Below, one piece after another: positions 90 to 37,682 of a stretch of 64,000 nucleotides of DNA (position 1 is its first letter; every line of letters begins with the position of its first letter). The stretch is taken from positions 18,375,905 through 18,439,904 of the forward strand of contig NC_092094.1 of the NCBI RefSeq assembly GCF_045679555.1, written 5' to 3'. Origin of the DNA: Salvelinus alpinus (lineage: Eukaryota; Chordata; Actinopteri; Salmoniformes; Salmonidae). The notes beneath the pieces are model-generated. The model was not told the origin of the DNA. It was given only the letters and a program-made list of their open reading frames with translations, and ran no database searches. The position numbers and the translations under genes were made by a program.

Positions 90-6016
<5,927 letters not shown>

Positions 6017-17729: not shown

Positions 17730-19623
17730 CTAAAACTCTAGGGGAGGGTCTGGGTGGGCATCTGTCCGCGGTGGCGGTTCCGGCGCTGGACGAGGACACC
17801 ACTCCACCATTGTCTTTGTCCCCCTCCTTAGCGTCCTTTGAGTGGCGACCCTCGCCGCCGACCTTGGCCTAGGAACCCTCACAAAGGGCCCCATCAGACT
17901 GAGGAGACAGCTCCGAACCGAGAGGTAGCTTAGGACAGAGAGGTAGCTCAGGACAGAGAGGTAGCTCAGGACAGAGAGGTAGCTCCGGACGAATGGCAGC
18001 TCCGAACTGAATGGCAGCTCCGGACTGAATGGCAGCTCCGGACTGAATGGCAGCTCCGGACTGGAGGGCAGCTCATGACTGGAGGGCAGCTCATGACTGG
18101 AGGGGAGCTCATGACTGGAGGGCAGCTCATGACTGGAGGGCAGCTCATGACTGGAGGGCAGCTCATGACTCATGACTGGAGGGCAGCTCATGACTGGAGG
18201 GCAGCTCATGACTGGAAGGCAGCTCATGACTGGAAGGCAGCTCATGACTGGAGGGCAGCTCATGACTGGAGGGCGGCTCTGGCAGCTCCTGACTGGCGGG
18301 CGGCTCTGGCAACTCCTGACTGGCGGGCGGCTCTGACGGCTCGGGACAGACGGGCGGCTCTGACGGCTCGGGACAGACGGGCGGCTCTGACGGCTCGGGA
18401 CAGACGGACGGCTCTGACGGCTCGGGACAGACGGACGGCTCAGACGGCTCGGGACAGACGGACGGCTCAGACGGCTCGGGACAGACGGACGGCTCAGATG
18501 GCGCTGGGCAGGCAGGCAGCTCAGATGGCGCTGGGCAGGCAGGCAGCTCAGATGGCGCTGGGCAGGCAGGCAGCTCAGATGGCGCTGAGTAGGCGGGCAG
18601 CTCAGATGGCGCTGAGTAGGCAGGCAGCTCAGATGGCGCTGAGCAGGTAGGCAGCTCAGATGGCGCTGAGCAGGCGGGCAGCTCAGACGGCGCTGGGCAG
18701 GCGGGCAGCTCAGATGGCGCTGGGCAGACGGGCAGCGCAGGCGGCGCTGGGCAGACGGACAGCGCAGGCGGCGCTGGGCAGACGGGCAGTGCAGGCGGCG
18801 CTGGGCAGACGGCCGACTCTGACCTGCTGAGGAGCACAGTAGGCCTGGTGCGTGGTGCCAGAACTGGTGGTACCGGACTGGAGACACGCACCACTAGGCG
18901 AGTGCGGGGAGCAGGAACAGGGCACACTGGACTCTCGAGGCGCACTATAAGCCTGGTGCGTGGTACCGGCACTGGTGGCACCGGGCTGAGGGCACGCACC
19001 TCAGGGCGAGTGCAGGGAGAAGGAACAGTGCGTACAGGGCTCTGGAGACGCACAGGAGGTTTGGTGCGTGGTGCCGGAACTGCTGGTACCGGGCTGGAGA
19101 CACGCACCACAGGGAGAGTGCGTGGAGGAGGAACAGGGCTCTGGAGACGCACAGGAGGCTTGGTGCGTGGTGCCGGAACTGGTGGTACCGGGCTGGAGAC
19201 ACGCACCACAGGGCGAGTGCGTGGAGGAGGAACAGGGCTCTGGAGACGCACTGGAAGCCTGGTGCGTGGTATTGGCACTGGTGGTACTGGGCTGATGACA
19301 GGAGAGCTAGTACGTGGGGCTGCCACGGGAGAGCTGGTGCGCTGAGCTGGCACAGGACGTGCAGGGCTAGGGAGGCGCACAGGAGGCCTGGTGCGTAAGG
19401 CTGGCACAGTCTTCACCAGACGGCTAGCCCGCATCTCAGGACGAGTATGGAGAGCTGACTCAGGTGATATCAAATCCCTGACACGCTCCGTCGTGCAGAT
19501 GTCGTGCCTCATGCACCAAACCAGCAAATCCCTCATTTCTCTCTCCTCCAATTTCCCCATTAGATCCTTCACAGTCTCTACTTCGCTCACCTCCAATACC
19601 GCCCTCACCGGCTCTGGTTCCAT
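17730..19623 (-). CDS. LTR element ORF B, Pro-rich repeat protein, frameshifted
   Basis: Starts at ATG 19623 with a short globular-looking N-terminus (residues ~1-55, with VKDLMGKLEEREMRDLLVWC and VRDLISPE). It then becomes low-complexity repeats: PAPRTRPPVR/SPVPPV units, CPAPSELPA units, CPEPSEPS units, then SSHELP units encoded by an 18-bp minisatellite. The frame ends at 18163, where an extra CTCATGA within the repeats shifts frame. The same repeat register resumes in the frame that runs to 17730 (SSPELPFSPEL..., ending HPDPPLEF). The undamaged protein would be about 630 aa. No known enzymatic motif; the N-terminus may be a degenerate gag matrix/capsid part, but I do not recognise it. Confidence 0.5.
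17925..18830. repeat. Coding minisatellite inside LTR element
   Basis: Successive blocks of tandem units on the plus strand: GGTAGCTCAGGACAGAGA (18 bp), CTCATGACTGGAGGGCAG (18 bp, about 12 copies at 18071-18270), then 27-30 bp units built on GGCTCTGACGGCTCGGGACA and GGCAGCTCAGATGGCGCTG. All are multiples of three except one 7-bp extra piece at 18163-18180. Confidence 0.9.
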
Positions 19624-29812: not shown

Positions 29813-31415
29813 CAGTGAGGGAAAAAAGTATTTGATCCCCTGCTGATTTTGTACGTTTGCCCACTGACAAAGAAATTATCAGTCTATAATTTTAATGGTA
29901 GGTTTATTTGAACAGTGAGAGACAGAATAACAACAAAACTATCCAGAAAAATGCATGTCAAAAATGTTATAAATTGATTTGCATTTTAATGAGGGAAATA
30001 AGTATTTGACCCCTTCTCAATCAAAAAGATTTCTGGCTCCCAGGTGTCTTTCATACAGGTAACGAACGGAGATTAGGAGCACACTTAAAGGGAGTGCTCC
30101 TAATCTCAGTTTCTTACCTGTATAAAAGATACCTGTCCACAGAAGCAATCAATCAATCAGATTCCAAACTCTCCACCATGGCCAAGACCAAAGAGCTCTC
30201 CAAGGATGTCAGGGACAAGATTGTAGACCTACACAAGGCTGGAATGGGCTACAAGACCATCGCCAAGCAGCTTGGTGAGAAGGTGACAACAGTTTCTGTG
30301 ATTATTCGCAAATGGAAGAAACACAAAAGAACTGTCAATCTCCCTCAGCCTGGGGCTCCATGCAAGATCTCACCTCGTGGAGTTGCAATGATCATGAGAA
30401 CGGTGAGGAATCAGCCCAGAACTACACAGGAGGATCTTGTCAATGATCTCAAGGCAGCTGGGACCATAGTCATCAAGAAAACAATTGGTAACACACTATG
30501 CCGTGAAGGACTGAAATCCTGCAGCGCCCGCAAGGTCCCCCTGCTCAAGAAAGCACATATACATGCCCGTCTGAAGTTTGCCAATGAACATCTGAATGAT
30601 TCAGAGGACAACTGGGTGAACGTGTTGTGGTCAGATGAGACCAAAATGGAGTTCTTTGGCATCAACCCAACTTGCCGTGTTTGGAGGAGGAGGAATGCTG
30701 CCTATGACCCCAAGAAACCATCCCCACCGTCAAACATGGAGGTGGAAACATTATGCTTTGGGGGTGTTTTTCTGCTAAAGGGACAGGACAACTTCACCGC
30801 ATCAAAGGGACGATGGACGGGGCCATGTACCATCAAATCTTGGGTGAGAACCTCCTTCCCTCAGCCAGGGTATTGAAAATGGGTCGTGGATGGGTATTCC
30901 AGCATGACAATGACCCAAAACACACGGCCAAGGCAACAAAGGAGTGGCTCAAGAAGAAGCACATTAAGGTCCTGGAGTGGCCTAGCCAGTCTCCAGACCT
31001 TAATCCCATAGAAAATCTGTGGAGGGAGCTGAAGGTTCGAGTTGCCAAACGTCAGCCTCGAAACCTTAATGACTTGAAGAAGATCTGCAAAGAGGAGTGG
31101 GACAAAATCCCTCCTGAGATGTGTGCAAACCTGGTGGCCAACTACAAGAAACGTCTGACCTCTGTGATTGCCAACAAGGGTTTTGCCACCAAGTACTAAG
31201 TCATGTTTTGCAGAGGGGTCAAATACTTATTTCCCTCATTAAAATGCAAATCAATTCATAACATTTTTGACATGCGTTTTTCTGGATTTTTTTGTTGATA
31301 TTCTGTCTCTCACTGTTCAAATAAACCTACCATTAAAATTATAGACTGATCATTTCTTTGTCAGTGGGCAAACGTACAAAATCAGCAGGGGATCAAATAC
31401 TTTTTTCCCTCACTG
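29813..31415 (+). mobile_element. Nearly complete Tc1 transposon with IR/DR ends
   Basis: 1.6 kb. Inverted terminal repeats about 205 bp long begin CAGTGAGGGAAAAAAGTATT and contain an inner direct repeat (TGAGGGAAATAAGTATTTGA), the IR/DR layout. The two repeats differ at about 6 positions by eye. It is flanked by TA at 29811-29812 and 31416-31417. It encloses the transposase at 30178-31199. Confidence 0.95.
30178..31199 (+). pseudogene. Tc1 transposase, one frameshift
   Basis: ATG 30178 opens a frame with two N-terminal helix-turn-helix parts ([40 protein letters not shown]) and the first catalytic Asp in [13 protein letters not shown] (30625-30661). Near 30715-30725 one base is missing, so this frame runs out at 30876. 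The frame from 30753 carries the rest: [11 protein letters not shown], the second Asp in [11 protein letters not shown] (30896-30928), and the Glu in [11 protein letters not shown] (30990-31022), DD34E spacing, ending at the TAA 31197-31199. All catalytic residues are present. Apart from this one frameshift I see no stop. The expected length, about 340 aa, is normal for Tc1. Confidence 0.93.
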
Positions 31416-32302: not shown

Positions 32303-32540
32303 TATAGATCTCTATGTTTAGCTCACATAATATAATTCAAAAAGTATGCATTAACATGTCTAATAGAATAAATGTGTCAAAAACAAATGTAGACATAAGA
32401 AAATGTCTACAAAATTGCTGTGCGGTGGTTTCAATAGAGCGCCCCCTGTCAGTCATGCAAGATTTATACACATCATTGGTTCAAACCACTCTAGCTAATT
32501 TTTGCCATGAAACTTCCCAGGGAAGTCTGGTTCGAGGCTA

Positions 32541-34120
32541 GAGGGGGACATGAGCAGAACTCCGGAAGGGGAAAATGGAGTCCCTGGAGAAAGCAAGTAC
32601 AAGATAGGTGTCAGGGATGGGGCGGCAGTATTATCATAAGGAGACGTGTACTTGGAAAACGGAGAAGGAATGGAGGGAAAAAGAGAGGGAGAAGAGGTCT
32701 AAGAGAGTGAGGGAAGAAGAGGGTGAGCTTGAGTCGGATAAAAATGGTGGGAAAAAAGGGAGATGGTTGTCAAAGAAGAATGGTAGAAAGTGTAAGCGGA
32801 GGGAGCTGAAGACAGGAGGAGAATGAAGTTGAAGTATCGGAGGTGGTAGGTGCGGTAAAGTTATCGGAGACCGAGGTATGCACCGAGGATCACGATGAAG
32901 AAGACGCTGTGACAGTAGTAGTGAAGTTTATTGAAAAAGTGGACTCTTGCCTTTTGGCTGATCCATTTGTGGTTTCACAGTGGGTGAAAAAAGAGTTGCA
33001 TCATGTGGAATCGGTGAGGGTAACTAGAAGTGGTCTAGTGATAATTGTTTGTGTTTCTGTTGGGCAGAGGAAGAATGTGCTCGAAGTAAAACGAATGGGA
33101 GCAAGAAAAGTGAATTGTTTCGTTCTCAAGAAAAGGGCACCAATGAAAGGAGTGATAACTAAGGTAGCAGTAGATATACATTTTGACCAGCTGAGGGCAA
33201 AGTTTCCCAGTGTATGTGATGCTCGTCGTTTGAAGCGACGCAGACAGGGTGGGGAAACAGAAGAGTCATCGTCTGTTCTTTTGAGTTTTGAAGTTGAGTC
33301 TGCCTGACAAAGTGAAGTTAGGATATATAAGTTATCCTGTATGAGCGTATGTGCCGAATACATTAAGATGTTACAGGTGTCAAGCTTATGGGCATGTGGC
33401 AGCAGTGTGTATGGGGGAGGGGTCTAAGGTGTGAGAAATGTGCAGAAGGGCATGAGACAAAGGAATGTGTAGTACTGGAGAAAGTAGTGGAATGTGTTAA
33501 TTGTAGGGGTGCCCATGGAGCTGGGGATCAGAAATGTCCCGTGCGAGAGAGGCAGGTTGAGTTTTCCAGGGTTAGAGTAGAGCAGAAGTTGTCATATGCT
33601 GAGGCAGTGAAGAAAGTAGAGGAAGATGGGTTAAGGGGGCGTTGTGGTGAGAGTAGTAGATATATACCAGTATAGAGGGATAGGCCAAAAAAGTGAAATA
33701 AGTTTCAGTAAGATTGGATTTTTAGCATTTATAACAATGGTTATTAATTGTACTGCAGGGATGGATCGGAAGTCTCAGAAAATTGAGGTTGTGGTGGCAA
33801 CTGCAGAGAGGAATTTGGATGTACAAGACTTGACAGCAGAAGAGTTATAGGATGTGTTAAGTGGTGATGTCCCATCCTTTCAGGGTGATGGCATGAGGTA
33901 GAAATAAATACATTTAATTAGTGGAGTAGGGGGGTGTTCATTTTATTTTATATAATTTTGAAATTAGTGAGTACTGTATAGTGGTAGATGGCAGGGTATT
34001 TATTTAGTACATTTTCCGTTTTCAAGTAAAGTATAAGGGAGTTGTACTCCAGTCTAGTAGGTGGCGGTAATGCCAGAAATTAGATGCCAACAGCCGTTAA
34101 ACCTCATAGAAGAAGAAGAT
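32541..34120 (+). mobile_element. ORF1-only non-LTR retroelement with 12-bp target duplication
   Basis: An insertion of 1580 bp flanked by GGTTCGAGGCTA at 32529-32540 and again at 34121-34132. It contains a degenerate ORF1: a Lys/Arg/Glu-rich region (32608-32826), then VVGAVKLSETEVCTED... through a conserved-looking domain (32840-33307), then three zinc knuckles: CYRCQAYGHVAAVC (about 33371-33412), CEKCAEGHETKEC (33433-33471), CVNCRGAHGAGDQKC (33493-33537). The 3' end has TAGGTGGCGGTAATGCCAG and an AGAAGAAGAAG-type tail. There is no endonuclease or RT region. The ORF has two frame changes and at least two stops, so this copy is dead. Confidence 0.85.
32608..33675 (+). pseudogene. Retroelement ORF1 (gag-like, CCHC zinc knuckles), broken
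   Basis: Known ORF1 proteins of jockey/I-like non-LTR elements bind nucleic acid and carry two or three CCHC knuckles. Here knuckle 1 is CX2CX4HX4C, knuckle 2 CX2CX3HX4C and knuckle 3 CX2CX3HX6C. The reading frame shifts by one near 32822 and again near 33413-33420, and TGA codons occur near 33340 and 33428. The part before the knuckles ends ...LSFEVESA at 33307 because of a further stop. The basic N-terminus (KKNGRKCKRREL) fits RNA binding. Confidence 0.7.
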
Positions 34121-34132
34121 GGTTCGAGGCTA

Positions 34133-34619
34133 CTACTAACGCTACCACCAAGCTAGACATGTGACAACTTGATTGTAGCATATAGGTAGCTAGCTAGATA
34201 TATTGTAACTAGCTAGCTAAGTGTTCAAGTTAGCAACTATTAGCATTATCTAACTGTTAGCTGGTAGTTATTAACGTTAACTATAAACGTTACAACAACG
34301 TGAAAACACTAGTTAACACAGCCAGTCATAAACCCCGCCTATTTCTACAATGTACATTAGCTAGCTAAAACTGATTTTACATCGGTTTTATCAAAAACTT
34401 CCATCACCATGGTTAGTCGGTTAGTCAGCTAACCGTATGCCTAATATAACCTTAAATTAAGACCAAAAAGCACTGTTTTCAATCATTTGTACGATATTTT
34501 GACATTGTGGCTGTGTTATCTAGTGGAAACCAGTATCGTTGGTTAGACTGTTAGGTAACATTAGCGGTAGGCTAGTTAGCTAGAAGTTTGCTAGGCTAAC
34601 TACTGCAGCTGGCTAAAAT
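34133..34619. other. Spacer with GCTAGCTAACGTTA-type simple motifs
   Basis: Rich in AGCTAGCTA and TTAGCTA motifs, frequent in fish DNA. No gene. Similar sequence continues at 34815-35400. Confidence 0.4.
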
Positions 34620-36142: not shown

Positions 36143-37682
36143 CAGTCGTGGCCAAAAGTTTTGAGAGTGACACAAATATACATTTTCACAAACCTGCCTC
36201 AGTTTGTATGATGGCAATTTGCATATACTCCAGAATGTTATGAAGAGTGATCAGATGAATTGCAATTAATTGCAAAGTCCCTCTTTGCCATGCAAATGAA
36301 CTGAATCCCCCAAAAACAGTTCCACTGCATTTCAGCCCTGCCACAAAAGGATCAGCTGACATGTCAGTGATTCTCTCGTTAACACAGGTGTGAGTGTTGA
36401 CGAGGACAAGGCTGGAGATCACTCTGTCATGCTGATTGAGTTCGAATAACAGACTGGAAGCTTCAAAAGGAAGATGGTGCTTGGAATTATTGTTCTTCCT
36501 CTGTCAAGCATGGTTACCTGCAAGGAAACACGTGCCGGCATCATTGCTTTGCACAAAAAGGGCTTCACAGGCAAGGATATTGCTGCCAGTAAGATTGCAC
36601 CTAAATCAACCATTTATCGGATCATCAAGAACTTCAAGGAGAGCGGTTCAATTGTTATGAAGAAGGCTTCAGGGCGCCCAAGAAAGTCCAGCAAGCGCCA
36701 GGACCGTCTCCGAAAGTTGATTCAGCTGCGGGATCGGGGCACCACCAGTAGAGAGGAATGGCAGCAGGTAGGTGTGAGTGCATCTGCACGCACAGTGAGG
36801 CGAAGACTTTTGAAGGATGGCCTGGTGTCAAGAAGGGCAGCAAAGAAGCCACTTCTCTCCAGGAAAAACATCAGGGACAGACTGATATTCTGCAAAAGGT
36901 ACAGGGATTGGACTGATGAGGACTGGGGTAAAGTCATTTTCTCTGATGAATCCCCTTTCCGATTGTTTGGAGCATCCGGAAAAAAGCTTGTCCGGAGAAG
37001 ACAAGGTGAGCGCTACCATCAGTCCTGTGTCATGCCAACAGTAAAGCATCTTGAGACCATTCATGTGTGGGGTTGCTTCTCAGCCAAGGGAGTGGGCTCA
37101 CTCACAATTTTGTCTAAGAACACGGCCATGAATAAAGAATGGTACTCCGAGAGCAACTTCTCCCAACCATCCAGGAACAGTTTGGTGACGAACAATGCCT
37201 TTTTCAGCATGATGGAGCACCTTGCCATAAGGTAAAAGTGATAACTAAGTGGCTCGGGGAACAAAACATTGATATTTTGGGTCCATGGCCAAGAAACTCC
37301 CCAGACCTTAATCCCATTGAGAACTTGTGGTCAATCCTCAAGAGGCGGGTGGACAAACAAAAACCCACAAATTCTGACAAACTCCAAGCATTGATTATGC
37401 AAGAATGGGCTGCCATCAGTCAGGATGTGGCCCAGAAGATAATTGACAGCATGCCAGGGCAGATTGCAGAGTTCTTGAAAAAGAAGGGTCAACACTGCAA
37501 ATATTGACTCTTTGCATCAACTTCATGTAATTGTCAATAAAAGCCTTTGACACTTATGAAATGCTTGTAATTATACTTCAGTATTCCATAGTAACATCTG
37601 ACAAAAATATCTAAAGACACTGAAGCAGCAGACTTTGTGAAAATTAATATTTGGTCATTCTCAAAACTTTTGTACATGACTG
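36143..37682 (+). mobile_element. Nearly complete Tc1 transposon (fourth family)
   Basis: 1.54 kb flanked by TA (36141-36142 and 37683-37684). The terminal repeats are CAGTCGTGGCCAAAAGTTTT at the left and CAGTCATGTACAAAAGTTTT at the right read inward. The transposase gene lies at 36474-37507. Confidence 0.93.
36474..37507 (+). pseudogene. Tc1 transposase, frameshifted by a small deletion
   Basis: The frame from ATG 36474 includes HTH parts (KETRAGIIALHKKGFTGKDI, ASARTVRRRLLKDGLVSRRA) and the first catalytic Asp in VIFSDESPFRLFG (36932-36970), then [10 protein letters not shown] (37070-37099). Near 37143-37150, after NKEWY, some 8-10 bp are missing relative to the expected pattern. The frame from 37139 carries the second Asp in FQHDGAPCH (37203-37229), the Glu in [14 protein letters not shown] (37302-37343), and the C-terminus ending KKGQHCKY at 37507. 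The catalytic triad is complete. Confidence 0.92.

Follow-up and report, generated by a model that had tools for sequence, protein, structure and literature searches.

To our knowledge, LINE derivatives that keep ORF1 alone are known mainly from mammals (HAL1) and from the telomeres of Drosophila (HeT-A). HAL1 is described as non-autonomous, with ORF1p as the only protein of this LINE derivative (PMC5753468, PMC4859970), and it arose several times from L1 (PMC5753468). HeT-A maintains the telomeres, and its reference copy, as mapped in PMC3357415, consists of a 5' UTR, Gag and a 3' UTR only. For salmonids, PMC3747384 lists the SINEs HpaI, SlmI, SmaI and FokI with heads derived from tRNA and with RSg-1 or SalL2 as the partner LINE. 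Here we analysed an ORF1-only element in a stretch of 64,000 nucleotides from Salvelinus alpinus (C9:18375905-18439904), referred to below as the window, together with its relatives in the same genome.

The element in the window is one decayed, 5'-truncated retroelement copy (Table 1). The sequence GGTTCGAGGCTA has exactly two occurrences in the window (32529-32540 and 34121-34132), and two matches occurred in none of 100 shuffles, even with one mismatch allowed. The exact 12-bp target duplication proposed in the initial annotation is therefore real, and it is 13 nt long if the T at 32528/34120, common to the element end and the duplication, is counted. The GAA-ending tail abuts the 3' repeat directly. 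Base composition supported the boundaries independently, because the GC skew covers the inserted stretch and stops with it: the skew was +0.50 over the 1580-bp element, against a maximum size of 0.31 elsewhere in the window (1580-bp stretches, 20-bp steps), and strand bias was strong from the bin at 32541 through the bin at 34140 (200-bp bins). Both ends of this copy had also been taken as true ends of the element, which does not hold for the 5' end, since other copies extend further upstream.

Several other features lie in the window. Tc1-type transposase genes lie near the element at 30010-31199 and 36450-37235 (HTH_SB and HTH_Tnp_Tc3_2, with DDE_3 in the first). Dense minisatellites with main periods of 18, 27, 36 and 99 bp occupy 17909-19357, where long open frames run on both strands. 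A PAS domain (PAS_11, E 1e-11) is encoded by an open frame at 3894-4358, probably part of a host gene.

Table 1. Features of the window copy and its insertion site, in window positions.
Feature	Position	Strand	Basis or remark
5' target-site duplication TGGTTCGAGGCTA (12 nt without the shared T)	32528..32540	+	
ORF1-only non-LTR element, window copy	32541..34119	+	colinear genome copies, GC-skew boundaries
Leftover 5' leader, truncated in window copy	32541..32574	+	
ORF1, 448 codons in family column majority	32575..33901	+	alignment of copies; window copy broken
Expected RRM-like domain ahead of the knuckles	32903..33301	+	predicted from sequence pattern
Zinc knuckle 1, CX2CX4HX4C	33369..33410	+	
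Zinc knuckle 2, CX2CX3HX4C	33430..33468	+	
Zinc knuckle 3, CX2CX3HX6C	33493..33537	+	
Family-specific 3' part	33902..34045	+	nucleotide match to 12 helper loci only short, chance-level
Tail like that of an RNase H-bearing LINE	34046..34119	+	hairpin 34060-34095, (GAA)n end 34109-34119
3' target-site duplication	34120..34132	+	

ORF1 is not intact in the window copy. Read from the family start, it carries four frameshifts (near 32820, 33300, 33412 and 33687) and four in-frame stops. The family gives a different picture from the single copy. In the column majority of 23 aligned copies (the window copy and 22 others) the frame is open for all 448 codons, the other two frames having 42 and 34 stops, and the majority remained stop-free when 52 sequences were used. 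Of the other aligned copies, 15 have bases at the start codon, and 14 of these read ATG; the stop codon at 33899 is TAG in 20/22. Every one of the 23 copies has a frameshift or an in-frame stop, and none of the four frameshifting indels of the window copy is common to any of the other 22, whose pairwise identity averages 0.90 (range 0.84-0.94). Because the majority frame is open and the indels of the window copy are private, the source element encoded an intact ORF1, and the copies decayed after insertion. An ATG at 32550 was tried as the start and rejected, as it needed five frame changes, all in one direction, and the copies favour 32575.

The picture of a basic, gag-like ORF1 with three CCHC knuckles survived in part. 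The three motifs lie in order, and among 2000 first-order Markov resamplings of the element 20 had one motif and none had more; the protein is only mildly basic (K+R 83, D+E 71, pI 8.9; 81, 74 and 8.5 from the other start). The read-through protein matched zf-CCHC with E 0.041 and 14.4 bits, below the Pfam cut-off of 20.8. Sequence searches of PDB and Pfam returned only weak zinc-knuckle matches and, still weaker, Fn14 from PDB (E 0.38) over the knuckle region. The presence of three knuckles agrees with the Jockey-like class of ORF1 outlined in PMC3905857, in which one or more RRM domains stand immediately before the CCHC knuckles. Pfam gave no RRM match in the ORF1 region pieces or the read-through protein, and the AlphaFold single-sequence model of ORF1 was too poor for fold comparison (mean pLDDT 44.3). 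The element had also been said to lack an endonuclease (EN) and a reverse transcriptase (RT), and this stands for the plus strand of the ORF1 region, where four pieces gave no Pfam match and hence no EN or RT. No relative was found in viral, phage, plasmid and bacterial collections; 32 pattern matches in viral contigs were inspected by eye, and a GAA tail followed none of them.

We searched the genome that holds the window (2.37 Gb, 928 contigs) with the whole element. Of 2311 first-look candidates 40 were scored, and these gave at least 49 matches. Many of the genome copies are colinear with the element at 80-91% identity. We examined 61 other loci, a part of all matches: the 20 best after the window, 20 chosen among the tail matches and among copies that are broken or in tandem, 19 found by the tail only, and L063 and L065 (L041-L060, L069-L107, L063, L065). 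The window or repeat places (L033-L040 and the rest of L061-L068) were not counted, nor was L108, an extended L105. In 59/61 of these loci ORF1 runs straight into the same 3' part, without ORF2 between. The junction is crossed by a single aligned piece in 54/59 loci when L063 and L065 are set aside, and also in these two; L055, L058 and L101 cross it with small deletions beyond. The two remaining loci are L105, a truncated stub that starts beyond the junction, and L081, where a LINE of a different family is nested 33 nt before the end of ORF1. A search with the last 64 nt of the tail gave 40 places, 19 of them new, with ORF1 joined to the tail in 18/19.

Two loci were considered as ORF2-bearing or full-length elements and rejected. 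In L081, the 3.2-kb interruption is the nested LINE. In L069, where ORF1 and tail lie 3.8 kb apart, the gap is an expanded internal minisatellite, with units of ~39 bp inside ORF1 (element 1106-1140) grown to ~3.7 kb (L069 about 1668-5426). The LINE nested in L081 is ~81% identical to a LINE fragment in the window itself (188-1631), which includes an RT domain.

Of the copies tested, 17/34 are flanked by duplications of 10-16 nt, all of them different, against 11/1122 mismatched pairs. An earlier, narrower test gave duplications of at least 11 nt in 6/24 copies and 3/552 mismatched pairs. The larger test took the longest string shared near the two ends, which was not required to abut the boundary, in the window copy and 33 of 40 loci; L045 and L057, in which the 3' end was not reached, and the broken or tandem copies L071, L073, L076, L081 and L086 were omitted, and L089-L107 were short fetches without 5' flank. 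Because the copies share one junction and carry different duplications, the ORF1-only form inserted many times. The initial annotation had reached the same conclusion, that the element moved in its short form, by arguing that both ends of the window copy were inserted together. That argument is invalid, as a later internal deletion would leave the duplication intact, so a duplication cannot prove that ORF2 was absent at insertion. The conclusion is supported instead by the family, for which the same annotation had proposed a shared junction and separate duplications as the test; copies with ORF2 between ORF1 and tail, the outcome that it named as contrary, were absent among the 61 loci. Thus ORF1 is present, ORF2 is absent and the same junction recurs in many independent copies, as in ORF1-only LINE derivatives, and the varied 5' starts, common 3' end and variable-length target duplications are those of a non-LTR element inserted by target-primed reverse transcription.

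The family probably comprises some hundred copies or more. One 32-nt piece of the tail has 39 exact matches in the genome and none in the reversed control (11 of the 39 lie in one tandem array on C28), and it is intact in only 7/26 aligned tails, which were chosen as close relatives. The array, at about C28:744700-782800, repeats the 3' half of the element; its tail matches are on one strand, and the distance between neighbours is 3,334-3,337 bp in six cases and 4,312-4,315 bp in four.

We used non-CpG variants within ORF1 to look for selection during spread. The count covered 52 of 60 sequences (the window and 59 loci), omitting the tandem or minisatellite copies L069, L086 and L098 and five loci whose longest aligned piece was below 400 nt (L084, L094, L103, L105 and L106). 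Variants in one copy comprised 105 synonymous, 440 nonsynonymous and 30 stop changes; those in two or three copies 48, 142 and 6; and those in four or more copies 12, 41 and 0. These counts do not show selection on ORF1 during spread, and a Fisher test on 23 copies at all sites gave P = 0.26.

Beyond ORF1, the 3' region as a whole (33899-34120) has 9, 6 and 5 stops in the three frames. The 26 aligned tails have a GAA-type end and mostly keep the hairpin, and L043 runs into an A stretch. Each of the nine pairs of the hairpin stem is kept in at least 24/26 copies, and no compensatory change was found among the 26. A structured 3' end had been suggested from the window copy; the hairpin is kept across copies, although the 3' end of the window copy alone is not unusually stable (z -0.97 over 76 nt, -0.35 over 55 nt and -2.06 over 141 nt). 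The hairpin is consistent with recognition of the tail by a helper, but is no proof of it.

A partner LINE had been expected to be traceable by its 3' end, and a candidate with RT, RNase H and a similar tail was found in this way. A sister-tail pattern, with ACC replacing AAC after GGTAATGC, had 95 exact matches in the genome and none in the reversed control. Twelve of these loci were fetched with 2 kb upstream. In 11/12 the final 63-77 nt match the element end at 78-82% identity, a similarity that is partly due to selection in that the search pattern holds part of the tail, although the remainder of these ~75 nt, as well as the GAA end, lies outside the pattern; the remaining locus, L115, aligns over 27 nt only. 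Upstream of the tail, the 12 loci match the element only over short, chance-level stretches. In three helper copies traced further upstream (L121-L123), no ORF1 piece matched (best tblastn E 1.3). Ten of the 12 (not L109 and L115) are alike upstream of the tail, over lengths from ~70 nt (L119) to ~2 kb (L117 against L118).

Of six helper pieces searched against Pfam, two matched above the cut-off, two matched below it and two had no match. The two strong matches were RNase H in L111 (E 6e-16) and RT in L117 (E 1e-9). L117 also holds an RNase H match, placed by coordinates, that is 88% identical to that of L111, and the order within L117 is RT at 178-528, RNase H at about 1041-1523 (C12:1639067-1639549) and tail at 2001. 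As both domains stand on L117 before its tail, RT and RNase H belong to one element. A non-LTR RT followed by RNase H in one element marks the I/Nimb group, to which the helper may belong. On these matches, the tail-sharing RNase H LINE is the likely helper, and the family may have acquired its tail rather than inherited it. The true helper could also be another LINE with the same tail.

The 5' ends of the family are less uniform than the 3' ends. In 11 of the 17 duplication-bearing copies, similarity to the window copy begins only 25-127 nt inward of the duplication. These leaders are of at least three kinds on one common body (L042, L044, L069 and L088; L047, L053 and L056; L046, L048, L059 and L075), and they look as if promoters had been swapped or first exons spliced on.

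A dispersed family with one ORF2-less junction, separate target duplications and an open majority ORF1, in a genome that also holds a similar-tailed LINE with RT and RNase H, is very probably a trans-mobilised family of non-autonomous ORF1-only LINE derivatives, with a Jockey/I-type ORF1 and the machinery of a separate RNase H LINE. The family, its junction, its duplications, its majority frame and that LINE are direct observations; from them we infer the trans-mobilisation by the RNase H LINE and the role of ORF1p. The source element would have had an open ORF1 and no ORF2. Its ORF1 protein would carry the zinc knuckles, probably with RRM domains before them, and would probably bind the RNA of the element that encodes it. 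The 3' hairpin and GAA tail would be recognised by the EN and RT of the similar-tailed RNase H LINE, whose machinery would insert the RNA by target-primed reverse transcription and so leave 10-16 bp duplications and variable 5' ends.

A related possibility is a two-part system, in which the element supplies the ORF1 protein and a helper that lacks or has lost this ORF1 supplies EN and RT. Each partner would then depend on the other and neither would be a parasite. We consider such mutual dependence very unlikely.

About as unlikely is that the copies are retrotransposed spliced transcripts of a full-length LINE, with the junction a splice junction and no ORF2-less source gene behind it. Splicing would give an identical junction each time, and different leaders on a common body resemble alternative first exons. 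Against it, none of the 61 loci examined carries an ORF2 of its own at the junction. Nor did any listed RNase H match lie within 6 kb downstream of a listed ORF1 match on the same strand, as judged by eye within top-scoring subsets (156 matches for RNase H). On C28, one RNase H match is 1.1 kb away from an ORF1 match of the same strand, with the order of the two reversed. On C30, an ORF1 match (C30:11656585) is followed after 2.9 kb by a sister tail (C30:11659922) on the same strand, and this pair could be an element with both ORF1 and ORF2.

It is very unlikely that the copies are instead processed pseudogenes of a host gene, gag-like and with CCHC knuckles, that acquired a LINE-like tail by chance. 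The heterogeneous leaders and the open majority frame speak for this reading. Against it, the 26 aligned tails end in GAA-type repeats with a mostly kept hairpin and not in poly(A), even with L043 running into an A stretch, and the ORF1 relatives, whose protein identity is as low as 57% among the matches listed (at least 152, from 150 scored of 5050 candidates), suit an element lineage better than one gene. That the window copy is a single full-length LINE whose ORF2 was deleted once the element had inserted, a process documented for non-LTR elements such as Hebe in rotifers in the account of PMC2861651 and compatible with the target duplication taken alone, is refuted by the junction shared with 59/61 other loci, along with the different duplications in 17/34 copies, and has next to no probability left.

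The ORF1-only family mobilised in trans, our preferred reading, can be set beside the described systems. No description of such an ORF1-only element in fish was found in the open literature searched, and the sequence may be catalogued in repeat databases such as Repbase without the ORF1-only interpretation. Like the salmonid SINEs, which share the 3' end of a partner LINE, the family is non-autonomous, and its tail resembles that of a candidate partner LINE. Those SINEs have tRNA-derived heads, whereas this family has an ORF of 448 codons, and no Rfam or tRNA match was found in window 32400-34250. With HeT-A it shares the form of a gag-only non-LTR element, but HeT-A is telomeric and this family is dispersed inside long contigs, with target duplications in half of the tested copies.

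The closest parallel is HAL1, which is likewise non-autonomous and encodes only ORF1p. HAL1 is L1-derived, whereas the present family has three CCHC knuckles and a tail like that of an RNase H LINE. Pfam holds models of L1 ORF1, and ORF1 of the window copy matched none of them in Pfam-A, where a sub-threshold zf-CCHC was the only match. The family is HAL1-like in its logic and apparently not derived from L1. A dispersed fish family with an ORF1 class unlike that of HAL1 and with a candidate helper is a further system in which to ask why ORF1 is kept by an element unable to copy itself: the protein might serve the RNA that encodes it, in cis, or be exchanged with the helper.
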